Shown here one piece after another: positions 663 to 59,138 of a stretch of 64,000 bases of DNA. The stretch lies in NCBI GenBank assembly GCA_905221615.1, contig CAJNDT010000979.1, positions 930,001 to 994,000 of the forward strand, given 5' to 3'. Every line of letters starts with the position of its first letter. Position 1 is the first letter of the stretch. The position numbers were made by a program, and so were the translations under genes. Source of the stretch: Symbiodinium sp. CCMP2592. Its lineage: Eukaryota > Sar > Dinophyceae > Suessiales > Symbiodiniaceae. Under the pieces are notes generated by a model. It made no database searches. It was not told where the DNA came from and was given only the letters and a program-made list of their open reading frames with translations.

Positions 663-884
663 TGGCACCCTAAACCCTAAACCCTAAACCCCTAAACCCT
701 AAACCCTAAACCCCTCGACCCTAAACCCTAAACCCTAAGCCCTAAACCCTAAACCCCTAAACCCTAAACCCCTAAACCCTAAACCCCTAAACCCCTAAAC
801 CCTAAACCCTAAGGCCAAACCCCTAAACCCTAAACCCCCAAACCCCTAAACCCTAACCCCTAAGCCCTAAACCCCTAAACCCCT
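663..884. repeat. CCCTAAA telomere-like block, left of exon
   Basis: Imperfect tandem CCCTAAA and CCCCTAAA units (Arabidopsis-type telomere motif, C-rich strand on plus). The block is internal, not terminal: unique sequence lies on both sides. It runs straight into the AG that precedes the exon at 887, so it forms the 3' end of the putative upstream intron. Confidence 0.9.
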
Positions 885-886
885 AG

Positions 887-955
887 TGAGGCCGCCGAAG
901 AGGAGGATCCCGAGATGAAAGAGGCGATCGAAGATTGCCCACGCCCCAGCTACAG
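887..955 (+). CDS. Small internal exon between two telomeric blocks
   Basis: The 69-nt segment reads EAAEEEDPEMKEAIEDCPRP followed by SY and a split codon. It is bounded by CCCTAG on the left (AG at 885-886) and by ACAG/GTTTAGCGTTTAGGG on the right (GT at 956). The acidic, lysine-containing peptide and GC-rich codons contrast sharply with the telomere repeats on both sides. Its partner exons are unknown. This is a clear example of an exon with a CCCTAAA array upstream and a TTTAGGG array downstream. Confidence 0.5.
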
Positions 956-1000
956 GTTTAGCGTTTAGGGGTTTAGGGTTTAGGGGTTTAGGGTTTAGGG
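956..1000. repeat. TTTAGGG block starting at a splice donor
   Basis: About six TTTAGGG/TTTAGGGG units begin immediately at the putative donor GTTTAG. They are the inverted counterpart of the CCCTAAA block at 663-884. Confidence 0.85.
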
Positions 1001-2038: not shown

Positions 2039-2259
2039 TAGCCCTGAAGAAGTTGTCAGCAGCTACTCGAAGTTGCTTCTTTGTGTGGGGCCGGTTTAGG
2101 TTTAGGGTTTAGGGTTTGCTTGAAGTGGGTCTCCTCCAAAAGTTCAGGGGTTGGTACAGGGTGCCCATCTGGAAAAGCTTCCGAGGCAAAGATGTGCTGC
2201 AGCTCATGCGCGAGGAGATCGAGATGCAGGATACAGACGTCTTCAGTGCCAGGAGCTGA
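2039..2259 (+). CDS. Two-exon 3' end of a gene with a telomere-type intron
   Basis: Exon 2039-2093 and exon 2160-2259 join in phase 2 across a 66-nt intron (2094-2159) that starts GTTTAGGTTTAGGG and ends GGTACAG. The joined reading is ALKKLSAATRSCFFVWGR then VPIWKSFRGKDVLQLM and REEIEMQDTDVFSARS, stop TGA at 2257-2259. The junction gives a continuous frame (WG-R-VPIW). This is the shortest clear case of an intron whose 5' end is made of telomere units. The protein family is not recognised. The upstream exon is not identified. Confidence 0.5.
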
Positions 2260-2705
2260 GTAAAGCAGGGGCGTTAATAAGTAGAAAGCGTTTCAGGGTA
2301 TGTTAGGCTATATTTATGTGCAAGGGTACCCTAGGGAACCGTAGTCTTGATTGTTCAAGCATCGTTTAATTTTCTTGGTTTCGTGCTAGCGAACTCGGCA
2401 TAACCCACTGCAGCTTCTAATCAGTTGTCATCTCGCTAAGATCGTGCTTACCAGTACTGCAACATTGTTACGGGTGTTCATGCCTTTAAAACTTTCAGGA
2501 TATCAGCCCAGCTCAACTATGCTCTCACAAGCACAGTTTTCGGGTTGTGCTGAAAGACCCGAAACCGTGCCAAGTTATCCATTCTCTGAACCCTCCCCCT
2601 TCCAGAAACAACTTGTTGAAATGTCCAGGCCCCCTGTATCATCCGATTTCTACCCCAAACCCCCAAGCCCTAAACCCTTAAAAGTTGGCTATCCCAAACT
2701 CTCAA
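2260..2705. other. Unassigned, low coding signal
   Basis: AT-richer sequence grading into degenerate CCCTAAA after 2650. An 89-codon open frame at 2444-2713 ends inside the telomeric repeats and is not supported. Confidence 0.4.
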
Positions 2706-2840
2706 AACCCTAAAAACCCTACACTCTAAACTCTACACCCTAAACCTAAACCCCAAACCCTAAACCCTAAACCCTCAAACTCTAAAGTTAAACTCTAAGC
2801 CCTCAAAACCCTCAAAACCCTAAACTCTAAACCCTCAAAC
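2706..2840. repeat. Degenerate CCCTAAA block, left of exon
   Basis: Imperfect CCCTAAA/CTCTAAA units lead to the acceptor CCGCTCAG at 2847. Confidence 0.85.
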
Positions 2841-2847
2841 CGCTCAG

Positions 2848-2964
2848 ATGCCGGGCGCAACCTGTTGGGTGCAGTTTCCCGAGGTGGAAGACGTCTGTGA
2901 TGTGGGTGAGGGAAAGCCCCTGTTTGCCAACTTCGCCTACGAGGACACTTTCTCAGGGGATTAG
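2848..2964 (+). CDS. Exon between telomeric blocks, ending in a stop
   Basis: After CGCTCAG the frame reads MPGATCWVQFPEVED, VCDVGEGKPLFANFAYED, TFSGD and TAG at 2962-2964. The peptide looks coding (aromatic and acidic residues, no repeats). CCCTAAA lies directly upstream and TTTAGGG directly downstream (2966 on). The ATG may simply be an internal methionine of a longer protein. No family recognised. Confidence 0.45.
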   Translation: MPGATCWVQFPEVEDVCDVGEGKPLFANFAYEDTFSGD

Positions 2965-2965
2965 A

Positions 2966-3060
2966 TTCGTTTAGGGTTAAGGGCTTAGGGTTTAGAGTTT
3001 AGGGGCTCAGGGTTTAGGGTTTAGACTGTGGGGTGTAAGGGTTTAGGGTTAGGTTTCTTC
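2966..3060. repeat. TTTAGGG block, right of exon
   Basis: Imperfect TTTAGGG units facing the CCCTAAA block at 2706-2840 across the exon. Confidence 0.8.
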
Positions 3061-3980: not shown

Positions 3981-4134
3981 CCTTTCAAGGCTCAGGGGGT
4001 AGCTGTTCTCCTTCAGGGTTTCGGGGGGTGCGGCGTTTGTCTCTTCTCTGCTTGGGCCACGATCCCGGACAGCCTCGAGAAGTTGGCGGGAGCACGTGTT
4101 CCAGGGGTTCCTGTACGGTGCGATCAGCCGCAAG

Positions 4135-5088
4135 ATGGAGGGAGGGGGCAAACCCCAGATCAATCTGGGGAAGAGGGTGCCGGTGCCGGACGATGATGAT
4201 CTTAGTCCGGCCAAACAGCCTCGCCGTGAAGTGGAGTCCGGGGCTTCGTTGGGCGTCTCTGCTTCGGAGTTGCAGAGAATGCTGGCGCAGCAGACTGAGC
4301 AGCTGGCAAGATCGCAGGAGCAGGCGGTGTCCCGTGCTGTTGCCCACTTTGAGAAGATTGTTGAGGACAGGGTTGCACAGACGGATGGACGTGTGGATGC
4401 CCTCGAGCGCAAGGTCGAGGAAATGGCAGGGGAGCTCCAGGCTGCTCTGGCCGGAGGGCCTGGGGAGGCACTACGTGCTCCAGGGCAGACCTCGGGTGAG
4501 CAGGCACGTCGGGAGAGAACTCTTGTCTTTGGAGGGTGGAGCCGAGACACGCGACGAGGGGAACTTCTTTCGGAGCTTAAGGAGGCGCTTGAGTCCCTGG
4601 GGGTTGCGAAGGATTTGGACTCGGAGCCCTTTGCAACAGGGGCTCGGCGAAGCATTGCTCTTGCAGGGTTTGCACAGAGGTCCGGCGAGTCCTACTCAGA
4701 CATGAGGGGCAGGATGCAGCGGGTTATTCGGGCGTTTGCGGATGCAGAGGTGATCGGGCGTCAGGGGAAGAAGCTCTGGAGCAACTGGAGTAAGAGCCGC
4801 CTTGAACGCATCCACAGCACACACGCCTCCATTGTGAAACGCACGGTGGCTGAATTTGACAAGAGCAAACTCAATCAGCTTGAGGTGGAGTGGAACAACG
4901 GAAGCGTTTGGACCTACCATAACCTTGTTGCAAGCAGTGCTGTCCCTCCGCCGCCAGGGGTTGATCCACAAAGCCTGTTCGTCCGGACTGAGGTGGACAC
5001 CAAGCCCTGGGTGGATGTGCTCAAACTCGCAGCTGATCTGGGGCTGGATGCAGGAAAGCTGAGGGAGGCCTTCGCAGCGATCAACTGA
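4135..5088 (+). CDS. LINE ORF1 protein, coiled coil plus RRM-like domain
   Basis: A 317-residue frame. The ATG at 4135 is chosen because the upstream open part has only a GTG (4096). Residues about 1-40 are basic/acidic (PDDDDLSPAKQPRREVE). Residues about 45-105 form a probable coiled coil (LQRMLAQQTEQLARSQEQ; VDALERKVEEMAGELQ). At about 130 lies RTLVFGGWSRDTRR, an RNP-like beta strand as in RRM-type ORF1 proteins, followed by LLSELKEALESLG and a basic region (GKKLWSNWSKSRLERI). The likely role is RNA binding and ribonucleoprotein assembly for retrotransposition. The stop TGA is in the same frame as ORF2, 27 nt upstream of its ATG. Confidence 0.75.
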   Translation: MEGGGKPQINLGKRVPVPDDDDLSPAKQPRREVESGASLGVSASELQRMLAQQTEQLARSQEQAVSRAVAHFEKIVEDRVAQTDGRVDALERKVEEMAGELQAALAGGPGEALRAPGQTSGEQARRERTLVFGGWSRDTRRGELLSELKEALESLGVAKDLDSEPFATGARRSIALAGFAQRSGESYSDMRGRMQRVIRAFADAEVIGRQGKKLWSNWSKSRLERIHSTHASIVKRTVAEFDKSKLNQLEVEWNNGSVWTYHNLVASSAVPPPPGVDPQSLFVRTEVDTKPWVDVLKLAADLGLDAGKLREAFAAIN

Positions 5089-5115
5089 CCAGGGCAGGGC
5101 CGACATACCGGCCCG

Positions 5116-7941
5116 ATGAAGGTACTGCTGCCGATCGCTGACACGAGCTTCAGGGTCTGTGGCTGGAATCTTGGTGGGGTCGAGGTACAAGACTTGACTT
5201 CTGCTCTTAAGGAGGGCACTGGTGATGCTTTCGGAGAAAATGATATAGCACTGGTGCAGGAATTGCCGAGGAGTCGTGTAGGCTGGTCTACGGAAGAGTT
5301 TCAGGGCTTCAGGCTGGTGGCCTTCAGACACGCCAAGATGTGGAGAGGCACAGGGGTGGTTTACAATCCGAGGGTCTGGAGTATGATCAGCAAGCGCAGT
5401 ACCAATCGGGGCACCTGGGTACACATGCGTCACCTTGCCAGTTCGGAGGGAGTCTGGTTTGGGACCGCCCATTTCAGCCCGGGGGTGCCGCAGGGAGAGT
5501 ATGAAGCGGAGGTCGAGAACCACTTTAGAAGTTGCCCCGCTCGGGGTGCCCCTGCAATTTTCCAGGGGGATCTGAATGCAGGTTTCCGCTGGTGGCAGGA
5601 CAGAGAGCGAGTGGAGGCTACAGGGCGGGATGACAAAGGGGAGATCTTTGGCAGATACGCTATGGAAAAGGGGTTCGACTTCGTGCATTTGAAGAGGGAT
5701 CAGTGGACTACACCCACAAGCAGACCCAGACAGGCTGGCAGAGTAGGGTCTCAGATTGATTACATGTTGTGCAGAGGGATACGACGTGAGGACTGCTGCA
5801 TCCATGTGGATTCTTGTCACTGTGTGGGTTCGGACCATGAATGCTTGAGTGCGTGGTTTATGCTGAGAACTCAGAGAATGATCCATCGCAGTGATACCAG
5901 ACCACGGGTATGGACAGGGTGCCGCGGAGTTGTGGGCGAGCTTGATCAAACAGCCATCGAGGGGTATGCCAGGAGATGTACGAAGCCCAAACCTGGGGTT
6001 GGCTACCGTGACCCAGATGATGTGAGGAAAGCATTCAAACAGGCCAAGGTGGCTAAGACGGGTGCTGCTTGGACTCATGCTTTGAAGTTGCGAAAACAGG
6101 CACGAAAGGTGTGGGAGGCAGACAGATTGAAAAGGGCCAGTGAAGGTGACTGGACCGCCCTCAAAGCGTGCCGTCCACGCAAGCATGCTGGGTGGGATGT
6201 GGGGTTCGCAGAGGCCCAACAAGGGGATCCCCACGAAGCGGTCCATAAGCACCTGCAGGCGGTCTACCAGGGGCATTCGCCGGATGCATCGAAGTATCGC
6301 TTTGAGGGTCCGATTTCAGAGTTCACGGTGAAGGAGATGAGAGAAGCATTGGCCCTCCTGAAGGCAAACAAGGCGGTCGGCACGGACTTGACATCCCGGG
6401 AATTGCTTGTGGGGCTTATGGAGGTTCCGGGCGGAGAGCAGGGGCTCCTCACGTGGTTCAATGGGATATTAGCTAGCCAACGGATGCCTGCACGGTGGAA
6501 TGAACCGTTGGTGGTGATGATGCCCAAGGTGGCCAATCCTAAGCAGTGCAAGCAACTGAGGCCCCTGGCCATGGGGAGTGCAGTAGGGAAACTGTTCGCC
6601 AAGATGCTGCTTGCAAGAACTTCGTGGGCTCTACAACCTCGTCAATCTGCTCAGTGCGCTGCTCCACATCGTCAAACCTCGGATTACCTTTTTAGTGTGC
6701 ATCGGATATTCGAATTATGCCGTGAGTGGGGTTCTGAGATGTGTGCGGTGAAAGTCGACCTTAATAAGGCCTTCGACTGTGTGGATCGACGTGTGGTGTT
6801 GGAACGGCTTGCTTCCCGGCTGGGTCCTTGTGCAGAGATGGGCTGTTGGGCAGCTCTGATGTCGGATGTGCAGGGCTGCCTTCAGACACCGTGGGGGCGG
6901 TCTGGATTGGACATGCACAGAGGGATAAAGCAAGGGGCGTGCGAATCCCCCGCCATGTTTGGGTTCATCGGTGAAATTGCTTTGGAGGAAGCTAAGCTCA
7001 AACACAGATGGGATCGGAGAACCAAGCTCTTTGAGGGGATGGATGACGAAGAGTGTCTCTTTATGGATGATGGAGTGTTGTGGGCCAAAGGGGTCGACCA
7101 GATGCAGCAACGGTTGGGTGAGTACGCAACACACCTGCAGAAGTTTGGACTCAGCATCAATCTGGCGAAATGTCAGCTCTATTGTGCACCTCGATGCCCA
7201 GGGTTGCGCAAGCTCGAGGTTGATGGCCAGGTCCTTGAGGCTTCTCCTTTCCTGGAAGTGATGGGCTTGCAGTTTCGGGTTGGGGTTACGATGACGGAAT
7301 TGGTGGCGTCTTTGGCGACCAGGGCGAAGCAGAAGTTTTGGGACCTCCAACATATCCTTCGAGCCAAGGGAGGGCTGAGCAAACGTATTCGCACCATGCA
7401 AAGAACGGTCGGGCAGGCAGGGTTGTGGTGCCTTAGTGCACTTCCACCAGACTCGAGCACGATGGGCTACCTTAACTCGGTTCAGCTTGGGCTTATTGTT
7501 TGGATGATGAGATTATCCAAGGGTGTTGCCGAGGACTGGGGGGCCTACCGACTGAGAGTGTGGCGAGCAGCCAGAGCGGCCTTGCACAGGGCCGGTGAAG
7601 ATAGGTGGTCCACTACTTGGTTGAAGAGATACTGGACGTATTCAGGACACAGGGCAAGGGGTTTGGATCAGCAGTACCCCACTATTAGCTCGAAACTGGA
7701 TGCTTTCAGGGATCGAGGCTGGTGGGAAGCCGAAAAGCTCAAGAAGGATGGCCTCACACATGTGCACCATTATCCTCGTTTGATGAAGATGGAAGCCCGA
7801 ATGGATGCAGTTTGTGGGGGGCCCTGGAGGGTGGCAGCCAGGGATCGGGGTACATGGAGAACCAGAGAACAGACTTGGATCAGGCAGGAGGACCTGCCAT
7901 GGGCGTCGGGAAGGCAAACTTCACTTGAGTCGGGGGGCTAG
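5116..7941 (+). CDS. LINE ORF2: EEP endonuclease and reverse transcriptase
   Basis: 941 residues. The N-terminal endonuclease/exonuclease/phosphatase-like domain (about 10-255) shows CGWNLGG, an acidic VQEL, GTAHFSPG, GDLNAGF, QIDYML and GSDHECL, matching the family's N, E, H, D-x-N, D and terminal SDH positions. The reverse transcriptase (about 390-720) shows LLKANKAVGTDLTSREL, LRPLAMGSAVGKLFAKML, VKVDLNKAFDCVDRR (palm motif A), GIKQGACESPAMF (motif B) and CLFMDDGVLWA (motif C, FMDD where YADD is usual). The tail is Trp/Arg-rich and has no zinc knuckle I can see. The product would nick DNA and copy the element RNA at the target. The frame is intact and lies in the same frame as ORF1. A 526-codon antisense frame (4696-6276) is a shadow. 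Confidence 0.9.
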   Translation: MKVLLPIADTSFRVCGWNLGGVEVQDLTSALKEGTGDAFGENDIALVQELPRSRVGWSTEEFQGFRLVAFRHAKMWRGTGVVYNPRVWSMISKRSTNRGTWVHMRHLASSEGVWFGTAHFSPGVPQGEYEAEVENHFRSCPARGAPAIFQGDLNAGFRWWQDRERVEATGRDDKGEIFGRYAMEKGFDFVHLKRDQWTTPTSRPRQAGRVGSQIDYMLCRGIRREDCCIHVDSCHCVGSDHECLSAWFMLRTQRMIHRSDTRPRVWTGCRGVVGELDQTAIEGYARRCTKPKPGVGYRDPDDVRKAFKQAKVAKTGAAWTHALKLRKQARKVWEADRLKRASEGDWTALKACRPRKHAGWDVGFAEAQQGDPHEAVHKHLQAVYQGHSPDASKYRFEGPISEFTVKEMREALALLKANKAVGTDLTSRELLVGLMEVPGGEQGLLTWFNGILASQRMPARWNEPLVVMMPKVANPKQCKQLRPLAMGSAVGKLFAKMLLARTSWALQPRQSAQCAAPHRQTSDYLFSVHRIFELCREWGSEMCAVKVDLNKAFDCVDRRVVLERLASRLGPCAEMGCWAALMSDVQGCLQTPWGRSGLDMHRGIKQGACESPAMFGFIGEIALEEAKLKHRWDRRTKLFEGMDDEECLFMDDGVLWAKGVDQMQQRLGEYATHLQKFGLSINLAKCQLYCAPRCPGLRKLEVDGQVLEASPFLEVMGLQFRVGVTMTELVASLATRAKQKFWDLQHILRAKGGLSKRIRTMQRTVGQAGLWCLSALPPDSSTMGYLNSVQLGLIVWMMRLSKGVAEDWGAYRLRVWRAARAALHRAGEDRWSTTWLKRYWTYSGHRARGLDQQYPTISSKLDAFRDRGWWEAEKLKKDGLTHVHHYPRLMKMEARMDAVCGGPWRVAARDRGTWRTREQTWIRQEDLPWASGRQTSLESGG

Positions 7942-8020
7942 GTTTCACAGTGAGAGGAGAGGGTGTGGAGAGAGTGTACAGTTGTTGCCTGATGTCGCTG
8001 TCTTGTGATGGCTTCCGAAT

Positions 8021-9475
8021 GTGTGCGGCCGGACTCACAGCGATTGCAGTAGCTGGACCTACTCTCGCATGCTCAACATGAGCGCCTTCCCTCCATATCT
8101 TTCATATCTTTCATGGTTTGCTGCCCTTGCAGCGTGCCTGGCTGCCTTCCCTAAGGGATGCGCTGGCTCTAAGGCGTTGCTGTTGCAGCCTGCAGCGGAG
8201 CCCTTGATGGAAGCTCGTGCTGAACCCAGAGGTACTGCCCAAGGTAATGATTCACCGGATGAAGATCAAGCTCGGCGGGAGCAGCGGGCCCTGGGGAACA
8301 TCAATTACACGTTTCGGGACTTTGATGAGGTGACTCTTTCGCAGCGGTTGGAAACACATGAGGTTGAGACGGATCCGTCGCCTTGGTTGCTGAGGTGGCA
8401 TGCGCTGGTGGAACAGATGTGGGTGTGGTTCGAGGAGGAACGCTCGGTGCACATTGCCTTTGATATGGTCCTTCATCTTCTTCAGTCGAGGCAAGATCAG
8501 GAGTATGCAGCCTGGGCCTTGGGGCCTCTCCACACTTTGGCTGCTGGTGTGGTGCAGCAAGTAGGGCCGCCTGACTCCTCGCAGATGCCACTAGTGTTCT
8601 TCGAATGGGCGGTTGAGGTGGAGGGCTACTTCTGGCATGCGTTCAACAGGGATGGTGTCCTTGCAGCTCTGGACGGCCTGGAACACGCAGGGGTGGCTGC
8701 GCATGCTACAGCCCCTGATGCCACAACTACGGTGAATGGTGAAGCCCCCACCCTGGCAACGGCGGCTGCTACTGTGGTGACCTTCGAGGAAGGGGTTGGA
8801 ATGGAGACGGATGAGCCTGTGGGCAGCGAGGAACCTTCGGCGTCTTCGGGGACCATGGTGGCAGGGGAGGCCGCTGGTGCCGATGGCCATATGGATCGAG
8901 AGGCACCGTGGATGCAGAGAATGCGGGCGATATACTTGAGGTTCCGCCGATCAGGCCGTGGACCTGCAGCCAGGCGGGCTCTTAGGGACCAAACCACCTC
9001 CTCAACGAGGGCGGTCATGGGATGTGCTCGGCGGACTCTGCCTGTCATTTTTGACAGAGCAGAACCAGAACAGGGTGAGCACCAGCACGACCACGTGGAG
9101 GATGACATGACGATAGAGGCATGGGTGGAACTGATGCTGGACGGTTGGAGAGAGCAAGCTCGTGCCCGAGGAGAAGAAGCTGGGGAAGAGCCTGAGAATG
9201 GAAATGCCACTGAGGTGTCAGTGGACCCAGACCTCCCCTTTGGCATCTTCCATGCGGCCCATGTGTGGCCTAACGGGACCTGGTCCACGGCGGAGGAGCT
9301 GACGGTCATCAACTCGGGTGTGGTGGCGAGCGGGGCTGATGAGAACGGTGAAGACCAGAGTGCCAATTGCAGCTCCGAGTCGTCTGGATCTAGGTCGGCC
9401 AGCCGCACACCGAGACGGAGGGCTGCAGCTGATGAAGCTGATGAGCACTCTCAGCTCTCCCTGTGGCGAGTTGGG
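8021..9475 (+). CDS. LINE third ORF, N-terminal part, with hydrophobic leader
   Basis: A frame open from 8009. The first ATG is at 8021 and a likelier one at 8069 (MLNMSAFPPYLSYLSWF then AALAACLAAF), which would begin with a signal-peptide or membrane-anchor-like hydrophobic stretch. Then follow acidic and Trp-rich segments (SPWLLRWHALVEQMWVWF; MPLVFFEWAVEVEGYFWH). The frame formally runs to 9619, but sensible sequence switches to the next frame around 9440-9480, giving the end used here. No known domain. I infer it is part of the element because it lies between ORF2 and the poly-A tail, on the same strand and with the same base composition. Confidence 0.55.
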
Positions 9476-11240
9476 GCACTGGTCGGTGCGGTTGGCACGG
9501 TGGTACGAGGAGATCCTCAGGCATGGTCTTCGGTTGGTGAGACAAGGTGGAGATGCTCGCCAGATGGTTCGGGACTTTGCTGCAGGGGTGCTCCTCATGC
9601 CGGACAGCGACTTTTTTGATCAGGCGATGAGGTGGGTAGGAGGTATCAACTGTGACCTGCTTGAGGAAGCCCAGCTGGGGTGGAGACCTGAATCAGATGC
9701 TGCACCGCCGGGGACGGCTGAGGTGGCCGAGTGGGTTCATGGCAGCATCGAGGTGCTGCTGTTCGAGTGGGAGCGACAAGGAGGGCAGCGAGCTGGTGGG
9801 TGTCAAACAGCAGAGGGCCGAGAATGCCGGAGGCACCCTAGAAGCCGTACGCCTCCGAGAAGGGCAAGCCAGGGAGAGCTGAGTGACGAGCAGTCCTTCA
9901 TGGAAAGAGGTGGACCAAGGGAGGGTGACCGGAGAGGACGAGATGACCCAGACTATACACAAGTCAACCCGCGATGGTTGACACGAAACCGGACGAGGAC
10001 TCCGGAGGGAAGGCCTGCTAAGGCTAAAGCGAGGCCGGCACCGAGGGCTGAGTGCGTCACCAGCGAGACCAGAGTTTTGAGGCCACCGTTGAGGAGACCG
10101 GCGAGCAGGCCTGCGGCAACCGGTGATTCAAGGTCGGGGGCTTCCAGCAGTGGTGATGCAGCAGGGGGCCATGACACTGGCTCCGTCTCCTTGAGACCGG
10201 CGGGGCTGCCTGGAACGGTCCCTGGGCACATGGAGGAACTGCAAGCTGTTGATGCCTGGAGGTTCTTGCTCGGTATGGATCCTGAAAGCTTCCCGGAAAA
10301 CGTCGATGTGGTAGCTGCCAGCCCACCCCAACCATTGCTGCCTCAGTATGCTTCGGAAATGATCACTGAGACTATGGCGGGCTACTCGGAGCACGATCGG
10401 ATGGTGATGACGATCAGCTTTGTTCGCTTTATCCGCATGCTGATGTCGGAAGTTGCTGCGGCCTTCGAACGAGGGGTGCAAGCAGGGGCGGCAGGTGCTC
10501 GCGACGAAGTGCTTGTCGATGTCGAGGTGGAACGGGGAGATGGGACCAGCCTTATGCAGCGCACCCTGACGGGCCACTTTGCAAAAGGGCCGGAGTCGCA
10601 AGATGTGTGGACACATGCTGTGCAGCAACTTCAGGCTGACCTCAGTGGGCAGCCCGGGGCATCCCGTAATGGCAACATCGAAGGCCTCAGGTCGAGGCTG
10701 GACCGGTATGCCGAAGTGGACCCACATCGCCGGGAAATGCTTGTGGCGGTGCTGGTGGCGATGCAAGAACCCACGGAGATCAGTACGGCTGGTGATCTGG
10801 GCTGGCAACTTCGGATGTGGAACAAGCTGTTTCCTGCGAGTGGTGGTGGCCAGAACTGTCCAGGCTCATCGTCGGACCGGTGGCCTTGGACCATTCCGAA
10901 TCCTGATGCGACTGATGGTGTGCTTCAGGAATTGGCAGAAGATGAACGTGAAGAGCGCCGTGGGAAGCAAGCTGAGATTGAGAGGACGGAGGCACAGCAG
11001 CTGGCCAGGGAGTTGGAGGAGGAAGAGGAAATGGAGTACAGGGTTGGACTTGGTGAGCACCGAGATGGTGATCGGAGTGGCGGACAACCGGGTGGTGTCC
11101 AAGGTCGGATGTCGCCCAGAGCCTTCAAGCAGTGGGAAGACTGGGAGTGGCATCAAATCATGACGGAACCGGCTGCGAAAAGGCAACGGACAGTGATGGT
11201 GGCCACCATGGAGGGGAGGACAGAAGAACGCGGCCGTGGA
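9475..11240 (+). pseudogene. LINE third ORF, middle part in shifted frame
   Basis: Continuation of the third coding region after an apparent +1 shift. The open frame spans 9318-11255 and contains GELGHWSVRLARWYEEIL, an Arg/Ser/Pro-rich linker (HPRSRTPPRRASQGEL), a helical region (MVMTISFVRFIRMLMSEV), an acidic coiled coil (QLARELEEEEEMEY) and a C-terminal FKQWEDWEWHQIM followed by AAKRQRTVMV. The W-rich/basic ending resembles what I recall of dinoflagellate LINE proteins. The shift may be an inactivating indel, a sequencing error or programmed frameshifting. Confidence 0.5.
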
Positions 11241-11764
11241 TCAGCCGTACCCTGAGAATGCCTATTACCACTGCTGGTGCTACCCCTACTTTGGACTTGC
11301 ACATCCGCTTTGAGAAAGAGGACTTCCCGGATGATGTTGACACGATACACTTGGGACGTGCTGAATGTGGAGGCAACACCAAGGTCCACCCGGATGAGCA
11401 GGAGACCCTACCGTATGAGACGTACCAGGACACTGAGACGATACCACTCAACCAGGACGGTGTCACGGATGGGATGGCTGCATCGGTATCGCAACCAGGG
11501 AGCCCACTTACTGAGCCAGCTGAGATACAACAGGACGGCCAGGTCGAGGAGGAGACTTTGGTGGGGTCTATGTCAGAGATGGACTTCCGGGACTACGAGG
11601 TGGTTTACACGAGGTGGAAAAAGGGTATCCTGGACAACAAGGAGGTGATTGCAATCGGGGGTGAAGGGTTACTGGAACTTATGGAAGCACAATATGTTCT
11701 GGATACGGAAACCCAGGTTATGGATGCGAACAATGTCTCGAACCTCAATGTGACCAATGAGTAA
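11240..11764 (+). pseudogene. LINE third ORF, C-terminal part, frame restored
   Basis: The original frame resumes (open 11132-11764) with ATPTLDLHIRFEKEDF, an acidic stretch and VVYTRWKKGILDNKEVI, stop TAA at 11762-11764. The two shifts compensate each other, so the full third protein would be about 1,240 residues if the frame were continuous. No domain recognised. Confidence 0.45.
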
Positions 11765-11883
11765 TCACTGTATCGACGTGGATAAGATCTACCTGATTGA
11801 TGGTTGGGTAGTTCCAGAGCCTGTCTCAAAAGAGACTTTCGCTGGATTATGCAGACGGAAAAAGGCCCTTAAAAAAAAAAAAA
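11765..11883 (+). other. LINE 3' untranslated region and poly-A tail
   Basis: About 105 nt of non-coding sequence followed by an uninterrupted A-run at 11871-11883, directly followed by CCCTGAAAGGATCCC of the target DNA. Confidence 0.7.
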
Positions 11884-15283: not shown

Positions 15284-15388
15284 TACGGTTGATGATATAA
15301 ATCCTGCACTACCCATAATAAGGAATATACCATAATTCCCATAGTTTAGGGTCCTTAAGGTAATGCAGGATTTATATCATCAACAGTA
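15284..15388. mobile_element. MITE family B
   Basis: Near-perfect terminal inverted repeats: TACGGTTGATGATATAAATC on the left and its complement ending TATCATCAACAGTA on the right, 105 bp in all. Family consensus TAC(G/T)GTTGATGATATAAATC. Other copies lie at 34160, 40897, 50110, 53627, 56548 and 59523. TA flanks the arms. Confidence 0.9.
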
Positions 15389-17156: not shown

Positions 17157-17510
17157 ACAAAATGATCATGCGGCTGGTCGACAAGGAAGGCAGGGGTATC
17201 TATGCGGAGCTTCGCAACTCGGACCCCAAGGTGATGAAGAAAGCGGCTGAGCCTTGGACGAAAGATGCTTGCTTCGCCCTGCAACTCAAGCCGGTGAGGA
17301 ATAAGTTCTTCGCCGGGCACTACATAGACCAATCGGAGAAGGCATGCAAAGCGAAAGCCGTTCCGGTGGCTTCTTCGCATCCTCAGGCGATGGAAATCAA
17401 AAATCTTTTTCCCATTGGGAAGTCGGACTTCTCGGTCATCGAGCAACAGTGCCAAGGGCGAGAGCGCGCCGATGTCATTGGAGTGGTCACGGAGCTTGAG
17501 CTGCCATGGG
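17144..17510 (+). CDS. Exon of an OB-fold (RPA-like) protein, tentative
   Basis: An open frame reads MRLVDKEGRGIYAELRNSDP, then LQLKPVRNKFFAGHYIDQ and RADVIGVVTELELP. The D-K-E-G-R-G loop and the late DVIGVV strand resemble RPA1-type single-strand-DNA-binding OB folds. This is from memory and unverified. The left edge overlaps the family H remnant (VPYYYK is encoded by it), and the right edge meets MITE F at 17505, where CCATGGGA/GTTTCC offers a donor GT. The body of the exon (about 350 nt) is GC-rich and free of repeats. Confidence 0.55.
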
Positions 17511-17613
17511 AGTTTCCGGAAATAGGGGACCCTAATATAGTACCCTAAATAGTAGGATCCTGATTATGAGGACCCCAGAATAAGGTACCCCTGTTCTCGG
17601 AAACCCATATAAG
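17505..17613. mobile_element. MITE family F abutting an exon end
   Basis: ATGGGAGTTTCCGGAAATAG on the left, CTCGGAAACCCATATA on the right, same internal layout as the copy at 1215. Confidence 0.85.
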
Positions 17614-17754
17614 AATTTTCACAAAACCTCTACAACGGACTCACATAGAAGAATTCTACCAGAGCACTAGAGCAGACCTGAGTTGCAAAAGTATCCTCGC
17701 ACGACCCTTCAGCACCCGGTAAGAACCCTAAGAGCCCCGAATATCAAATATGAT

Positions 17755-17930
17755 CCTAAACCCTAAACCCTAATCCCTTTAAACCCTAAACCCCTAAATC
17801 CCAAAGCCCTAAACCCCCAAACCCCTAAACCCCTAAACCCTAAACCCTTCAACCCCTAAATCCCAAAGCCCTAAACCCTAAGCCCCTAAACCCTAAACTC
17901 TAAACCCTAAACCCTTAAACCCTATCAGCC
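17755..17930. repeat. CCCTAAA block, left of exon
   Basis: About 22 CCCTAAA/CCCCTAAA units lead to the acceptor CAGCCTACAG. Confidence 0.9.
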
Positions 17931-17935
17931 TACAG

Positions 17936-18025
17936 CGCTACGGTTCAGGAAAGTACTTCCGCCGCAACTTCAGCCCGAAGTTCTACGGGGTGCCGGTCTT
18001 AGATGGCTTGGGGCGAAGAAAAGGG
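17936..18025 (+). CDS. 90-nt exon between inverted telomeric arrays
   Basis: Exactly 30 codons, RYGSGKYFRRNFSPKFYG then VPVLDGLGRRKG, from CTACAG (AG 17934-17935) to GGG/GTTTAGGGG. The reading is basic and aromatic, clearly unlike the repeats on both sides. If not spliced, translation would stop at once in the donor (GTT-TAG). Family not recognised. This is the cleanest exon of the telomere-flanked type. Confidence 0.6.
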
Positions 18026-18232
18026 GTTTAGGGGTTTAGGGTTTAGGGCTTAGGGGTTTAGGGGTTTAGGGGTTTAGGGTTTAGGGGTTTAGGGGTTTAG
18101 GGTTTATAGGGGTGTAGGGGTTTAGGGGTTTAGGGGTTTAGGGGTTTAGGGTTTAGGGGTTTAGGGTTTAGGGGTTTAGGGGCTTAGGGGTTTAGGGTTT
18201 AGGGGTTTGGGGGCTTAGGGGTTTAGGGATGA
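18026..18232. repeat. TTTAGGG block beginning at the donor
   Basis: About 27 TTTAGGG/TTTAGGGG units, inverted relative to 17755-17930, starting with the donor GT itself. Confidence 0.9.
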
Positions 18233-18352
18233 TTATGGCTGTGTACAGGGCTTCGTCGTAAGCATGTCATTGCCCAGGGCCCTGCCTGCTCAGCCTCCGT
18301 GAGGTCCCCCACAAAAGGAAAAGGATGGAGAGGCTAAGAGCGCCTTCCTAAA

Positions 18353-18446
18353 GGGAACTCCTATATGGTTTCAGGGTAGGATACCTTATAATTTACCATA
18401 AAGGGTTTAGGATAATCATATTCCAACTTTTTGGCTTTTACTTTAT
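18353..18446. mobile_element. MITE family C, diverged
   Basis: The right arm CATATTCCAACTTTTTGGCT is retained. The left arm is reduced to AACTCCTATATGGTTTC. Confidence 0.6.
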
Positions 18447-18449
18447 AGT

Positions 18450-19262
18450 GGCTGATTAGGAAACTTCTTTGAGGTTGTAAGCATTTAGCACAGGTGTCGG
18501 AACCACTATTCTCGCCTTGTGGTCCCTATGCAGTCATAGTATCCTGTGCCCTGTGTTGGGATTCAGGGTTTCGTCGTTTGGGGTTTAGAGTTTGTGCGGA
18601 AACCACTTGCCGGTGAAATGTTCAGTACCTCGCTTGCACTAGCGGTACCCTTACGTGACCACGTAAAGGAACCCTGAAAGAACCCCCTGAAGCATTCCTG
18701 GTATTCGGCCTCTAGGTCAAGCCTCAAAGCCAAACTGCCCATAGAGGAGCCCAGACTCCCAAACCTTACACCTTAAACCGCCAAACCGTACCTTAAATCC
18801 ACGAGGTCAAAACTGGAACCCAAAACACTAAAATGGAAAACGTTAAGGAACCCTTACCTAGGTATCCCAGTGGGCCACTTGTCCTTCTTTCTGGTCTCAG
18901 GTTCCTTACAAAGCTAACAGGCTTTAACTAAATGGGGAGCCCTTGTTTTTTCAGGATACTGGGGATGCTAGCAAACATGTTCCCAAGTTGGCTACGTAGG
19001 GACCCTAGATCATACCAATATGCTTCAAATCCTAAGCTTTCAGCAACCCTTAAAATACGATAGTCTCCTTAGGAGTTACTTTTTGTTCTTATAAGACCCA
19101 AGAGAGTATTCAAGATACTGTTTTTATTTTGGTTCCAACGGGGGTATAGAAACAACCTGCCTAAACCCCTAAACCCTAAACCTTCAGGAACCTTGAAAAA
19201 TACCCTAAACCCAAAACCCCTAGACCCTAAACCCCTAAACCTCCCTTAAAGTACCCTTACAG
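18450..19262. other. Intron-like spacer with two old MITEs
   Basis: It holds a diverged family M copy (18856-18972: left GGTATCCCAGT, right ATACTGGGGATGCTAG), a family L copy (19060-19140: TAGTCTCCTTAGGAGTTACT, repeated at 37569 and 63842) and a CCCTAAA block (19163-19240) before the exon at 19263. No gene seen. Confidence 0.55.
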
Positions 19263-19330
19263 GTCAACACCATGGAAGAGCTGGTTGCCTTGATCGACGA
19301 CACCCTCGCAAGGGACCTGGCAATAAACGA
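19263..19330 (+). CDS. Small exon with GTGTTTAGGG donor
   Basis: After CCCTTACAG the frame reads VNTMEELVALIDDTLA then RDLAINE, ending at GA/GTGTTTAGGGTTTAGGG. The helical acidic peptide is plausible coding. CCCTAAA lies upstream and TTTAGGG downstream. Family unknown. Confidence 0.55.
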
Positions 19331-19759
19331 GTGTTTAGGGTTTAGGGTTTAGGGGTGCATGCTGTAAGGGCTCTATGTGGGTTCCATAGAGGTTTTTACA
19401 GGGTTTGGGCGGTTTATAGATTTAGGGTTTGAGGAGTTTTCTGAGGGATCTACAAGCTTTCCATGGCCGGTAGCTTCCAGAAGGTTTCTGAGGGGCAGAG
19501 GGGCTTCATGTTTCTTTTGATGATAGTTTGGGGTTTAGGGTTTTGGGGGTGTAGGCCAAGGGTTTTGCAGAGCTTAGGGGGTTTTGGTTAAGGTTGAGGG
19601 GGTTTAGGGCTTAAGGGAGTTTGATTCAATGGGATCGAATCAGGCGATTGCTTTATGCCACGTGGGGTTTCGCAGGTTTTCGATAAGGGTGTGGAGTTTT
19701 GTTTAAGTAACGTTCTGCAGGGTTTTGTAGGGGTTTTGCGGGAGCCCTTAAGCAAAAAC

Positions 19760-20335
19760 CGTACAGCTCAAGGCTCATTGCTCTTTGCCGGCGTCAGCTG
19801 TAAATCCATCAGCTGCAGAGACAGAAGTTCGCCGATTGTTATCAAACAGGCGAGGGAAGCAGCCATTGGCTCACTTCTGTACATCTCTCCGGAGCGCCCA
19901 GACGCTCAATTTGCCAGAGGGTCCGTGGCCCGATGTATGGCAAGATCAACAAAGAAGGCGTGGAGTCAATTGTACATGTTGGGTGAAAACCTGTAGCACG
20001 CGAGACATTACGAGCTCACTTTGAGATGGACCTTTCCAGGCCGCTCGATGCCTGATGAGAGGCAGTTGTCTGCTGCAGAGGTTGCCCAGCAACAAACTGC
20101 AAATGCAAATGAGCCCATGTTGATTGAAGTTCTGACAGATTCTGATTGGGCCGGTGCAGCAGACCGTATTTCCACGAGTTCATGCCATATCTTCGTCAAC
20201 GGTAACCTTGCATATGCTCTTGTGCGGAAACAAGGGTGCATAAAGCGATCCCAGAGCTGGGGGCCGCTGCCACGTATTCGGCGAGCGCGTCATCGTCCCT
20301 TAAATCCTCATAGGAGGCCAAAAGGCGTTTTAGCC
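19760..20335 (+). pseudogene. Decayed Ty1/copia pol fragment (RNase H region)
   Basis: Two frames hold consecutive parts of a copia-type C-terminus. The first, at about 19845-19990, reads LLYISPERPDAQFA then SWSQL-like KKAWSQLYMLG. The second, at about 20100-20260, reads VLTDSDWAGAADR, ISTSSCHIFVNGNLAYALV and RKQGCIKRS. The TDSDWAG and STS motifs are characteristic of copia RNase H, where the Asp residues bind metal. The frame change near 19996 and loss of frame after 20260 show decay. No LTR is recognised. Confidence 0.75.
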
Positions 20336-20826
20336 TAGGGCCTATGCGGGTTTAGTAGGGACTAGGGTTCCCACAATAGGGTTCATATTCAGGAATCCCT
20401 ACCCCAAAGGATCTTAAACCCTCCTGCCGGCCTCCCATCAAATCCTAAACCCCCAAGCCCCTGAACCCTACTGAAACTACCCGACGGAGGGTCTTCACAA
20501 CCCGAACCTGAGCGACTTTGTAGCTATAGAGGGAGTGAAAGGGGTACTAGTACTATTTGTCTCATTTTCCAATATCATTTTACCTGTTCGACCCCGTATT
20601 GCGTCGTGCTCCTCCCAGATCCTAAACCCTAAGAATCTCCTGACCCATGTGGTCTTTCGTCGACGGCTTGCACCTTAGGCGGAAAAAGGAGCTCAAAGAA
20701 AAAGCTCAAAAAAATAATCTTAAGGCGCTCAACAAAAAAACCCTTAAGGAGCTCAACAAAAAAACCTTTAGGAGTTCAAAAAACGCCCTTAAATTACCCG
20801 CTTACCCCACACGTGATCCTCCCAGA

Positions 20827-20888
20827 TCCTGCACGGCCGCGTTGTCGAGACTCAGATTTCGACAGAGTGCCTGCCTCAGCTTCCGGGG
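20827..20888 (+). CDS. Possible exon immediately before a MITE D
   Basis: After TCCCAG the frame reads ILHGRVVETQISTECLPQL and PGH, ending where MITE D sequence (TAGAGGGGCCTTAATAATTA) starts. Confidence 0.4.
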
Positions 20889-21064
20889 CATAGAGGGGCC
20901 TTAATAATTAGAATAGGGTTCCTTTAAAGTGTTCCTTATAGGGGTATATAAGTGATCTATAGTCGGGTTGTACGGTATAGGGGCCTTAATAAGTAGAAAA
21001 AGGTTCTGGGGCCCAGTATCCTGTCATTATGATAATATTGGTAATTATTTTGGCCCCTACAGTA
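20889..21064. mobile_element. MITE family D, partial plus complete copy
   Basis: A left-arm fragment at 20889-20925 is followed by a copy at 20977-21064 with TATAGGGGCCTTAATAAGTA on the left and TTTTGGCCCCTACAGTA on the right. The right arm ends in CCCCTACAG, an acceptor-like sequence. Confidence 0.75.
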
Positions 21065-21721
21065 CCCAGAGGCGCAGGGGACTTAGTAAGTAGGGTAGTT
21101 TAGGGCTTAGGGAGCTGGGTGATAAGGAGGCACCCCTAAACAAGGGGATTTTAGATTCTAAAGCGAAACATATAGACTCCACCAGCTACGCGCGCTATCT
21201 GGAGGGTCGGGGTTGTCGGGTGTCAAGGTTTGGTATGGTTTGGTGGTTTAGGGTTTAGGATAAGGGTCCAAAAAGGGTTCCTTCGACGTGGTTATATAAG
21301 AGCCCGATCAGGGTACTATAGAGGGTGGGTGTTTTGGGTTGCGGGTGTTGGGTTTGAGGATGTCTGGCTTTTCAGTTTGGGGGGTATCTGGTTGCTTACC
21401 GTGGGCATACTCGTACGTCAACCCCGATGATAGCCTTGCCTTGGCAACCCCACTTCGGGGATTCGTGTTTGGGCTGTGCCGTTGTCGAGAGGGTTCAGTG
21501 CAAATCGATTTTAAGGATTTAGGAGTCATAGAGTTGGGGCTTTTGGTGTTCGAGCTGTGCTCACTCCTACCCCAGAACCCGCAGCACGAACGAGTGATCC
21601 CCAGTGTAGCAACATGTGGTACACCCTGACAAATCCTTGTGGAATCTTGCAATGAACTGAACTGCAAAACAAAAGGTAAATCCTGAAGAAAGCTCGACCC
21701 CTTAGAACCTCAGACACGGCA

Positions 21722-21826
21722 AGGATCGACACGAACGAAGTCTTTGTGGCCTTGACAGAGGACGCCAGGAGGATCAGGTGGCGCTGTGGCCATTCTGATC
21801 ATTGCTACGATTATAAGCCAGGCTAA
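21722..21826 (+). CDS. Possible terminal exon, Cys/Arg-containing
   Basis: It reads IDTNEVFVALTEDARRIRW then RCGHSDHCYDYKPG, stop TAA at 21824-21826. Coding-like, but isolated. Confidence 0.3.
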   Translation, partial: RIDTNEVFVALTEDARRIRWRCGHSDHCYDYKPG

Positions 21827-22227
21827 TACGAGCATGTAATGATTTGAGGGCCTTGATGTGCGGACTCCCACCATAGTCCCTGTGAGTGTCTTAATGTTAG
21901 GATCCCCGTTGTAAGCTCCATGAAGCGAGGGGTTCACTTTCGCCGAAAGCTCAGCACAAGTTGATGGACTTGGATGACTCCTGCAGGTTTAAGGTTTGGT
22001 GCCTCAGGATTTGGGTTTTTGTAAGGATTCAGAGTATCGACTTATTCGCTCTTAGTTTGTGAAACTATGCCGACCACTGGTAGCTAAAGCCTCCCCTTGT
22101 TTAAAGCCCCAATGATCGTCCCTACTGGGGCAGTGGGGTCCTGAGCTTTCATTACTCTCGCTGTGATTCTCGCCATCCATTGCAGGACTCGGCCCCCCAA
22201 GCCCTGAACCCCCACGAGAGACTGTGA

Positions 22228-22290
22228 AAAACAAATGAACTTCAACAAACTCCGCTCGATTGTCATCTTTGTCAACACCGGCGCCGACAT
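22228..22290 (+). CDS. Possible exon before MITE A
   Basis: It reads MNFNKLRSIVIFVNTGADIL. It may join the exon at 22470 across an intron containing the MITE A at 22321-22447, but no GT donor fits; a GC donor would be needed. Confidence 0.3.
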
Positions 22291-22320
22291 CCTAAAGCCC
22301 AAACCCTGAGGCCCTAAAGC

Positions 22321-22447
22321 CTACTTAAAGGATCATGGGACTTAGTAAGTAGGGTTATAAGTAGGTTATAATTAGGCTAACCCCACTTAGGGGACTTATA
22401 ACCCCACTTATAACCTACTTACTAAGTCCCATGATCCCTTAAGTACA
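22321..22447. mobile_element. MITE family A, nearly palindromic
   Basis: Arms TACTTAAAGGATCATGGGAC and its complement ending CCCATGATCCCTTAAGTA. The interior is also paired (TTATAAGTAGG with CCTACTTATAA class). Family consensus (C)TTAGAGG(A/C)TCATGGGACTT, flanked by TA. This is the most abundant family: 24770, 33013, 41239, 42724, 49031, 55574, 59139, 60417, 60820 and within the two tandem arrays. Confidence 0.9.
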
Positions 22448-22469
22448 CCCTGAGCCCCCTAAGCCGCAG

Positions 22470-22552
22470 GCACCGGAAGCTCAACTCGGGCGACATGACT
22501 GCCAACTTGCAGATCAACATCCCCCAAGATGGCTATGGACCGGAGCTTATGG
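22470..22552 (+). CDS. Exon with GTGTTTTAGGG donor
   Basis: After AGCCGCAG the frame reads HRKLNSGDMTANLQINIP then QDGYGPELM, ending ATG-G/GTGTTTTAGGGTTTAGGG. Clear coding character. Family unknown. A MITE A lies 22 nt upstream. Confidence 0.55.
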
Positions 22553-22671
22553 GTGTTTTAGGGTTTAGGGTGTTAAGACAAGGGCTTTGGGGTATACTAC
22601 AGGCACCTAGATTTGACTAGGGTTCCTGTGAAGGGGTCAAAAAGGGCTACTGCAAGGGCGGTTGCAAGGCT

Positions 22672-27946: not shown

Positions 27947-28388
27947 GAGGCCGATTTGCACTTTCAGGGTTGAGGGGCTTAAACCTTATAAGCCTTCAGG
28001 ACGAAAAGAACCCTAAAAAGGTATCAGTAGGATAACCCCATTTAGGGGACTTATAACTCCAAGTAAAACCTACTTACTAAGTCCTATGATCCTCTCAGTA
28101 ACCTAAACTCCCCCATATAGACCCCTTATAGATCCCTAAACCCTAAACCCTAAAGGAACCCTTACATGTACCAAGCTCAAAAAAAGAGGATCCCTTACAG
28201 GAGCCCTTTAAGGAACCCTACTAAGTTTCATGATCCTCTAATATACCCTAAAACCCTAAACCCTTAAAAGGGAAGCCTACTATAGAACCCTAAAGTACCC
28301 TTAAAAGGAACCCTAAACCCCACTTACTAGGTCCCATGAGCCTCTAAGTAAGCCGTTCGGGCTCTATCCTTAGAGCCTGAACCCCCTG

Positions 28389-28501
28389 CTAGGATGCCCA
28401 GTAGTACCCTTATTCCCTTTTTGTAGTCCTAGGTTCCTTATAAAGTTACCCAATACCAAAAAGAGAGGCCTTTCTATTCTTGGTTACTGGGTATCCTAGC
28501 C
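28389..28501. mobile_element. MITE family M (within satellite unit 1)
   Basis: The left arm CTAGGATGCCCAGTAGTACC pairs with the right arm GGTTACTGGGTATCCTAG. The interior has CCCTTATTCCCTTTTTGTAG. It is repeated in each satellite unit and stands alone at 47818-47935 and 56296-56408, so the satellite captured a mobile element. Confidence 0.9.
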
Positions 28502-31500: not shown

Positions 31501-33012
31501 AGCCTATTATAGAACCCTAAAGTACCCTTGAAAGGAACCCTAAACCCCACTTACTAAGTCCCATGAGCCTCTAAGTAAGCCGTTCGGGCTCTATCCTTAG
31601 AGCCTGATCCCCCTGCTAGGATGCCCAGTAGTACCCTTATTCCCTTTTTGTAGTCCTAGGTTCCTTATAAAGTTACCCAATACCAAAAAGAGAGGCCTTT
31701 TTATTCTTGGTTACTGGGTATCCTAGCCTGTATCCTCGGCCCTGAAGTGCAGAGCCCCACGACCCTTATAGTAGGGTGTAGGGTTTAGGGTTTAGGGGTT
31801 GAGGGGTTTCGGGTTTGGGGGTATAGGGTTTGGGGGTTTAGGGTTCTAGGGGTTTAGGGTTTAGGGGTTGAGGGTTTAGGGGTTTCGGGTTTACAGATCT
31901 TCCGCGCGATCAGAACATTATGCAAGAGACCGATGTGCACTTTCAAGGTTGAGGGGCTTAAGCCTTAAGGACGAAAAGAACCCTAAAAAGGGTTCAGGGT
32001 TCATAGACCTTATAGGGTTTAGTAGTGTACTTGTATAGGGCCCCTACTTTTAAGCGTCATTGGGTCCTTAAGGAAGGCGGCCCACTCAAGGGTGGGCTGC
32101 TTTGCGCTTAGGGTTTGGAGTCTAGTTTGGGTACGGCCCCGACTCAGTAATAGTTGAATAATACTCATAATATAGATATATTAGGACTTTCATAGTAGCC
32201 CTATTATAGTTCCTAAAGTCTAGGGTTTAGGGCGTGGACTTCAGGGTTTTGGGTTTAGGGTCCAGACCCTCATCTGCTCTATACCCTGCCTACTTAAAGG
32301 CTCATCGAACTTAGGAAGTTTAAGGTTATAAGTAGGCTATAAACTTACACCCCCAATTATAACCTACTTACTAAGTCCCATTATCCTCTCAGAAACCTAA
32401 ACTCCCCCTTATAGAACCCTTATAGATCCCTAAACCCCATACCCCAACCCCTAAAGGACCCCTTAAATGTACCAAGCTCAAAAAATGAGGATCCCTTACA
32501 GGAGCCCTTTAACGAACCCTACTAAGTTTCATGATCCTCTAATATACCCTAAAGCCCTAAACCCTTAAAAGGGAAGCCTACTATAGAACCCTAAAGTACC
32601 CTTGAAAGGAACCCTAAACCCCACTTACTAAGTCCCATGAGCCTCTAAGTAAGCCGTTCGGGCTCTATCCTTAGAGCCTGATCCCCCTGCTAGGATGCCC
32701 AGTAGTACCCTTATTCCCTTTTTGTAGTCCTAGGTTCCTTATAAAGTTACCCAATACCAAAAAAAGAGGCCTTTCTATTCTTGGTTACTGGGTATCCTAG
32801 CCTGTATCCTCGGCCCTGAAGTGCGAGCCCCACGACCCTTATAGTAGGGTGTAGGGTTTAGGGTTGAGGGGTTTCGGGTTTAGGCGTTTAGGGGTTTAGG
32901 CGTTTAGGGGTTTAGGGTTTTAGGGGTTTAGGGTTTAGGGGTTTAGGATTTAGGGTTTAGGGTGTAGGGTTTAGGGTTATAGCTGTTATAGCTCGTCTCT
33001 AAGCCTGTCAAA

Positions 33013-33906: not shown

Positions 33907-33970
33907 AGGGTTTAGAACCCTAAACCCTAAACCCTAAACCCTAGGCCCCTCGACCTCCTTCGACCCACAG

Positions 33971-51017: not shown

Positions 51018-51130
51018 CTATAGTAGAAGCCAGAAAGTTCGAACATCATCAGCCTCATGCCCTTAAACCAAAGTATAGGGAATCCTAGCACTGATCCTCC
51101 TAATTCCATGTTGCAACTTTCGGGAGTTCA
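51018..51130. mobile_element. MITE family C
   Basis: TATAGTAGAAGCCAGAAAGT on the left, GTTGCAACTTTCGGGAGTTC on the right. CCCTAAA resumes immediately. Confidence 0.75.
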
Positions 51131-51191
51131 AACCCTAAACCCTAAACCCTAAACCCCTAAACCCTAAACCCCTAAACAAACCCCAAAGCAG

Positions 51192-51289
51192 ACCTCTGCG
51201 AGCCGAGGATTCCTACCGTAGCGCCCGTGGTCCCCACCACGCCAGAGCAGATCGTCTCGCCGAACAAGCCGGCGCGATGGGGCTTCGGG
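51192..51289 (+). CDS. Exon between inverted telomeric blocks
   Basis: After CCCCAAAGCAG the frame reads LCEPRIPTVAPVVPTTPE then QIVSPNKPARWGF, ending GGCTTCGG/GGTTTGTGG. CCCTAAA at 51125-51178 upstream, TTTAGGG at 51298-51405 downstream. Pro/Val-rich, possibly a linker. Family unknown. Confidence 0.55.
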
Positions 51290-51530
51290 GTTTGTGGGGA
51301 TTTAGGGGTTAGGGGTTTAGGGGTTTAGGTTTCTAGGGTTTATGGGTTAGTTAGGGGTTTAGGGGTTTAGGGGTTTGGGGGTTAGGGGCTTAGGGTTTAG
51401 GGCGCGATGGGGCACTGTAGGGTTCCTTTAAGGCTTCCTTGAAAGGTTCTATAAGGGGTTCCAGGGTTTAGGTTCCAAGGTTTAGGGTTAAGGGGCTTCG
51501 GGCCTGTAGGGTTCCTGGAAGGGTTAGTAA

Positions 51531-58918: not shown

Positions 58919-58977
58919 GTCCCTTCGTTGCGCTTGCCCACACCCCAACCTTCCAATCCTGGGAATGCTAAACTGGG
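58919..58977 (+). CDS. Possible exon with GTTTAGGG donor
   Basis: Between CACCTTCAG and GG/GTTTAGGGTTTAGGG a GC-rich 59-nt segment is open in more than one frame (for example SLRCACPHPNLPILGMLN). Confidence 0.35.
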
Positions 58978-59138
58978 GTTTAGGGTTTAGGGTTTACCCT
59001 AAGCATTGGGAACCTAAATCCTTGCGTACCTGGATCAGAAGAATTGCCATTGGTATCCCCGTGCAGGTCTTGTAGTTAGTTGCTATATACCCCAAAGATC
59101 TATGCCATTATATGCTTATCAAGGCCTTTCTGTTTGCC

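Follow-up and report, generated by a model that had tools for sequence, protein, structure and literature searches.

Telomere-like repeat arrays oriented relative to exons in a dinoflagellate nuclear genome

An AG exclusion zone exists upstream of 3' splice sites. Dinoflagellate introners are reportedly the subject of Roy et al. 2023. The repeats described below touch on both: as in the AG exclusion zone, acceptors here have little AGG immediately before them, but a repeat that contains AG in one orientation and lacks it in the other would, unlike that zone itself, expose the constraint genome-wide. A third neighbor is the interstitial telomeric sequence. Like such sequences, the arrays here consist of tandem telomere units inside chromosomes, away from chromosome ends; unlike them, they are very dense and are oriented relative to exons. 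In Amoebophrya, introner elements give introns that have an inverted repeat at each end (PMC7789003). In Prorocentrum cordatum, introners were recognized by two features lying no more than 30 bases from the intron ends, inverted repeats of 8-20 nt and direct repeats of 3-5 nt (PMC10666404). Whereas those dinoflagellate introners carry inverted repeats at both ends, the arms in our introns co-occur no more often than by chance. At the level of titles and abstract openings, the papers listed in literature searches yielded no description of exon-oriented telomere repeats.

The window analyzed here is a stretch of 64,000 nucleotides (C979:930001-994000), and genome-wide counts were made over the 1.098-Gb assembly of 5383 contigs. 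Peridinin-chlorophyll protein (PCP) gave 143 matches across the assembly, indicating that the host is a peridinin dinoflagellate; PCP genes and GC, GA and GT donors, both expected of such a nuclear genome, are present. The PCP genes occur in large arrays on contigs C1035, C722, C784 and C2391. On its two strands, the window holds 509 TTTAGGG/CCCTAAA units, compared with 30.6 expected, and 0 of 100 shuffles reached as many. Perfect three-unit matches number 130,959 in the whole 1.1 Gb; 43 of them are in the window, against 7.6 predicted from the genome mean, which marks it as a telomere-rich stretch. Tandem repeats of ~1.07 kb with telomere-like arrays in both orientations occupy 28000-33000.

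Candidate exons and their flanking arrays

The initial annotation had cited eight coding-like segments of the window (Table 1) as exons of introns that start with TTTAGGG repeats and end with CCCTAAA repeats. The right-hand side of this description was borne out, as a TTTAGGG unit lies within ~25 nt of all eight segments. On the left, a CCCTAAA unit was found within 60 nt of six of the eight, but there is none at 2039 and no exact unit at 22470. AG directly precedes every segment and GT directly follows seven, the exception being 2848-2964. That each intron would carry both arms was not confirmed: two of the four chain introns, those ending before 2848 and 19263, have an exact CCCTAAA unit no more than 60 nt from the acceptor. 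Candidate intron 18026-19262 has both arms.

Two sets of segments, 888-955 with 2039-2093 and 2848-2964, and 17936-18025 with 19263-19330 and 22470-22552, each maintain one open reading frame throughout. We drew 5000 random three-segment AG..GT chains with the segment lengths of the second set; an open frame existed in 138 of them, and all scored below both cited chains, although the cited segments had been chosen beforehand as coding-like. From their sequence, these two chains may be exons as annotated, but 51192-51289 scores better on the minus strand and 58919-58977 has no coding support. A codon model served as a second test of coding status; 20 long frames from loci of dynein, chaperonin and PCP, 10,282 codons in all, formed its training set, and it replaced an earlier GC-driven model that was too noisy. 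Applied to 12 homology-defined dynein exons from two loci (L062 and L063), it placed 10 on the right strand and 1 on the wrong strand, and missed 1. Its scan of the window did not include 2039-2093, 17936-18025 or 58919-58977 among its islands, and searches of the window exon chains against Pfam and PDB gave no convincing homologue. The stretch 3' of 2848-2964 may be UTR rather than intron.

Joining 17162-17515 to the chain 17936-22552 was considered and rejected, because this piece belongs to a repeated family while the exons downstream of it matched only the window in a genome search with the window gene. Beyond the window's own part of its contig, the family has 50 matches, at ~60-65% identity and on several contigs. 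Its copies are paired ~1.9-2.5 kb apart on several contigs, many of the frames are 312-335 aa long, and nothing in Pfam scored above the cut-off. The end of the 17162 frame seems to be overlapped by a MITE-like palindromic element.

Table 1. Cited segments, candidate exons and neighboring arrays in the window
Feature	Positions	Strand	Remarks
CCCTAAA array	667..882	-	left of first cited candidate exon
candidate exon EAAEEEDPEMKEAIEDCPRPSY..	888..955	+	AG before, GT after; in frame with 2039-2093 and 2848-2964; coding scan 888-944
TTTAGGG array	955..1000	+	directly after candidate donor
candidate exon SPEEVVSSYSKLLLCVGP	2039..2093	+	frame continuity only; score alone 0.6 in frame used; no CCCTAAA unit near left
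TTTAGGG units	2093..2114	+	after candidate donor
degenerate CCCTAAA array	2657..2835	-	before third candidate exon
candidate exon	2848..2964	+	AT after; ends in in-frame TAG; coding scan 2845-2952
TTTAGGG array	2969..3050	+	after candidate exon 2848-2964
CCCTAAA array	17724..17924	-	before candidate exon 17936
candidate exon RYGSGKYFRRNFSPKFYGVPVLDGLGRRKG	17936..18025	+	in frame with 19263 and 22470 exons; score alone 3.8, not a listed coding island
TTTAGGG/TTTAGGGG array	18022..18228	+	at candidate donor
CCCTAAA array	19160..19241	-	upstream of acceptor at 19262
candidate exon VNTMEELVALIDDTLARDLAIN	19263..19330	+	coding scan 19260-19322; in frame in second chain
TTTAGGG array	19333..19356	+	start of candidate intron
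candidate exon HRKLNSGDMTANLQINIPQDGYGPELM	22470..22552	+	coding scan 22477-22551; in frame in second chain
TTTAGGG units	22557..22571	+	after candidate exon 22470-22552
CCCTAAA array	33916..33943	-	directly after short TTTAGGG-type block (head to head); then coding-like island 33959-34015
CCCTAAA array	51130..51184	-	before candidate exon 51192
GC-rich candidate exon	51192..51289	+	strand uncertain: minus 15.8 vs plus 10.1; scan picks minus 51196-51276
TTTAGGG array	51287..51513	+	after candidate exon 51192-51289
cited segment	58919..58977	+	coding score -1.0
TTTAGGG array	58975..58995	+	after last cited segment

Array orientation around splice sites

The dynein AAA_6 family gave 96 genome matches. 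In the fetched dynein loci, 95 exon pairs were aligned with their splice sites, and removal of 2 duplicates left 93 introns; none was excluded for lack of splice gain, and only GC, GT or GA donors with AG acceptors were permitted. The donors were GC in 47, GT in 30 and GA in 16. Paralogous dynein genes (C1446, C4623 and C7 versus C5362, C5290 and C4952) differ greatly in intron load, one having a 3269-aa open frame and others consisting of short exons split by kilobase introns.

On the sense strand, 27 TTTAGGG units but only 3 CCCTAAA units lie within 150 nt downstream of 123 dynein exon pieces, and 42 CCCTAAA versus 7 TTTAGGG units lie within 150 nt upstream; these are counts of units, in which long arrays are counted repeatedly. 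When only the nearest array within 120 nt was considered, donors had 10 of TTTAGGG type and 3 of CCCTAAA type (P = 0.046), and acceptors had 12 of CCCTAAA type and 1 of TTTAGGG type. Combined, arrays in the polar arrangement (TTTAGGG-type after donors, CCCTAAA-type before acceptors) outnumbered the opposite arrangement by 22 to 4 (P = 0.0003). Nearest arrays at any distance gave a TTTAGGG:CCCTAAA ratio of 13:6 for donors (P = 0.08) and a CCCTAAA:TTTAGGG ratio of 14:5 for acceptors. Counted as introns with any unit within 120 nt (n = 93), 10 had TTTAGGG-type and 6 CCCTAAA-type units near the donor, and 12 had CCCTAAA-type and 2 TTTAGGG-type units near the acceptor. For introns of at least 400 nt (n = 24), the TTTAGGG:CCCTAAA ratio of arrays within 120 nt was 9:4 at the donor (P = 0.13) and 2:12 at the acceptor, and no orientation bias was seen in their interiors (27:26 and 22:25). 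Single-unit arrays in these introns were no more concentrated near either splice site (4.5 and 4.9 per kb) than in the interior (4.4 and 3.9 per kb).

The polarity at intron ends that the initial annotation had noticed is thus present at dynein exons and in the genome pairs described below, but the systematic use of telomere units as splice-site arms is not. Any array, by a looser motif, occurs in only 19 of the 93 dynein introns (an exact TTTAGGG or CCCTAAA unit in 15), interior arrays are unbiased, and in 0 of 93 does the donor fall within a telomere unit.

The initial annotation had also proposed that the two ends of an intron pair in the RNA and so join the splice sites. Although TTTAGGG and CCCTAAA are complementary, and both occur in some introns, such as window 18026-19262, we consider such pairing very improbable. 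Two arms were found in 4 of the 24 long introns, with 3.4 expected (P = 0.45, a comparison of low power), and the arrangement CCCTAAA-exon-TTTAGGG could also pair across exons. The same counts bear on transposons of the introner type whose terminal inverted repeats would be telomere-like, an explanation to which we give the least credence of all. Dinoflagellate introners are on record (PMC7789003, PMC10666404), but no dynein intron takes its splice site from the end of an element by beginning inside a unit, inverted repeats at both ends of one intron are not in excess at this low power, and the distance from splice site to array varies among introns. A nested transposon ("bracket") model was rejected because the interiors are unbiased and the arms do not co-occur. 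The P. cordatum criterion could also pick up pairs of telomere units located by chance near intron ends, a caution that inverted repeats there may appear without introner transposition.

Genome-wide, we counted pairs in the order CCCTAAACCCTAA...TTAGGGTTTAGGG (C->G) and in the mirror order (G->C) at three gaps. In these raw counts, which include each long array several times, C->G exceeded G->C 5.1-fold at a gap of 150-180 (15,698 vs 3,095), 2.3-fold at 60-90 (2,392 vs 1,055) and 1.5-fold at 400-430 (6,968 vs 4,557). On contig C1, with overlaps merged by hand among the matches listed, C->G and G->C numbered 18 and 5 at 150-180, and 9 and 7 at 400-430. The largest ratio, at 150-180, fits an exon with short flanks. 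Among matches of this gap in the sequence examined, four in the window (near 800, 17869, 19167 and 33918) enclose a segment that is cited or coding-like; others, at window 39025 and in locus L019, enclose no evident exon. For the gap of 60-90, the C->G matches listed had a median interior GC of 0.58, and the G->C matches listed one of 0.48. With each distinct place among those listed entered once (31 C->G and 37 G->C, at most 80 letters each), the interior GC was at least 0.55 in 18 of 26 C->G places and 2 of 27 G->C places that were mostly non-telomeric inside.

Polarity could also arise in the DNA, if breaks in exons or short introns were healed on both sides by telomerase and then rejoined to give exon-TTTAGGG...CCCTAAA-exon. 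This would need no role in splicing, and head-to-head junctions do exist, at window 33916 and in a dynein intron of L062 just before 9118. We nevertheless judge such an origin improbable. At gaps below 30 nt, the sequence examined contained 11 head-to-head and 13 tail-to-tail junctions, G->C at a gap of 60-90 was the rarest class counted, arms occur without co-occurrence, and interior arrays are unbiased. Direct repeats next to arrays also occur at about the control rate. With telomere-like repeats filtered, direct repeats of at least 9 nt flank 26 of 289 blocks, mostly where the sequence is locally repetitive, as in L077; ~7 of the blocks appear clean, close to the ~6.5 predicted by a control rate of 2.3% (135/5983). 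Direct repeats beside arrays are therefore not taken as marks of insertion. Among isolated arrays, those at window 1460, window 35283 and L063:6077 have clean flanking direct repeats (14, 21 and 13 nt, respectively).

Coding islands gave a further view of the arrays. These tests excluded the retroelement block at 4000-11800, the frames at 43600-46000 and islands longer than 260 nt. Arrays of at least two units around islands were polar in 30 cases and of the opposite orientation in 6 (P = 3.5e-5), and their total of 36 exceeded the 21.4 expected (P = 0.0007). Units of any kind were not enriched near islands (96 vs 87.4 expected, P = 0.17), with 66 polar and 30 of the opposite orientation. The share with at least two units was higher among polar exon-side arrays (30/66) than among distant arrays (80/378; P = 8e-5). 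For nearest arrays of any kind, polar and opposite orientations stood at 33:20 in the window and 30:10 in the dynein loci, compared with 714:661 in non-coding control intervals.

A probable link between splicing and array orientation

The confinement of polarity to the neighborhoods of splice sites indicates splicing, and we infer that selection on splicing is most likely its cause. For the polarity near exons, a constraint imposed by splicing seems a better description than purpose-built pairing arms. We lean toward an explanation in which interstitial telomere-like arrays have their orientation sorted by splicing near splice sites. TTTAGGG and variant arrays are dispersed through non-coding DNA, long introns included; within ~120-150 nt of splice sites, the TTTAGGG type tends to be found downstream of donors and the CCCTAAA type upstream of acceptors, with orientation free deeper in. 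Acceptors in this genome read AG/G (the slash marking the junction). A TTTAGGG array amounts to a row of TTTAG/GG acceptor mimics, which would be damaging just 5' of a true acceptor and harmless immediately 3' of a donor, and CCCTAAA offers neither AG nor GT.

In telomere-free introns (n = 76), AGG made up 2 of 912 in the last 3-15 nt, 11 of 1117 at 15-30 nt and 44 of 2471 at 60-200 nt. Because every TTTAGGG unit contains AGG and no CCCTAAA unit does, this depletion accounts well for the acceptor-side polarity. The donor-side polarity is weaker. The arrays do not appear to copy a general preference, since telomere-free introns (n = 78) show no skew between GGG and CCC (40 vs 45 in the first 40 nt and 32 vs 36 in the last 40 nt).

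A pure filter can only remove arrays. Arrays of at least two units are enriched and purer beside exons, so a positive role in splicing is possible, and the genome-wide C->G excess seems, by argument rather than by a computed model, to be above what a filter alone would give, as removal from an even scatter should not lift exon-spanning C->G pairs several-fold over the mirror class. Two accounts would fit: introns were still short when arrays entered them and later lengthened internally, or the arrays beside exons are maintained. Maintenance by positive selection of functional splicing elements, which bind factors or otherwise define exons, is an alternative that we regard as rather unlikely but by no means negligible. 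The enrichment of arrays of at least two units near coding islands, the greater purity of polar than of distant arrays, and the peak of the C->G excess at the exon-sized gap among the three tested are in its favor. Most dynein introns nevertheless lack arrays altogether, the telomere-free introns lack the skew in GGG and CCC, and CTAA precedes acceptors in only 2 of 76 of them, which also leaves a supply of branch points by CCCTAAA unsupported. In its specific form, this alternative holds that arrays across the genome have been co-opted for orientation-specific exon definition, with CCCTAAA preceding exons and TTTAGGG following them; it is a tentative proposal that we doubt to a similar degree. 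If true, it would explain the enrichment and purity of exon-side arrays of at least two units, which would help the spliceosome to locate short exons among long introns with GC, GA and GT donors.

Sorting of orientation by splicing, the reading we prefer, suggests that gene structure can shape telomere-like repeats. The arrays also provide a natural genome-wide experiment that sets true splice sites against look-alikes where most donors are not GT.

The window carries several other elements. A non-LTR retroelement at 5089-7941, with endonuclease and reverse transcriptase domains, is flanked by long open frames at 4003-5088 and 8009-11761; the flanking frames 8009-9616 and 9303-11252 had no match in Pfam. 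In a search for its relatives in viral contigs, 11 stretches fit the pattern and 0 were confirmed. Short palindromic (MITE-like) elements of several families, with recurring arms, lie for example at 15290-15380, 22337-22430, 49281-49370 and 59154-59240. At 60834-62770, ~20 copies of a tandem repeat with a spacing of 97 nt contain the arm of a palindromic element (CTTACTAAGTCCC).
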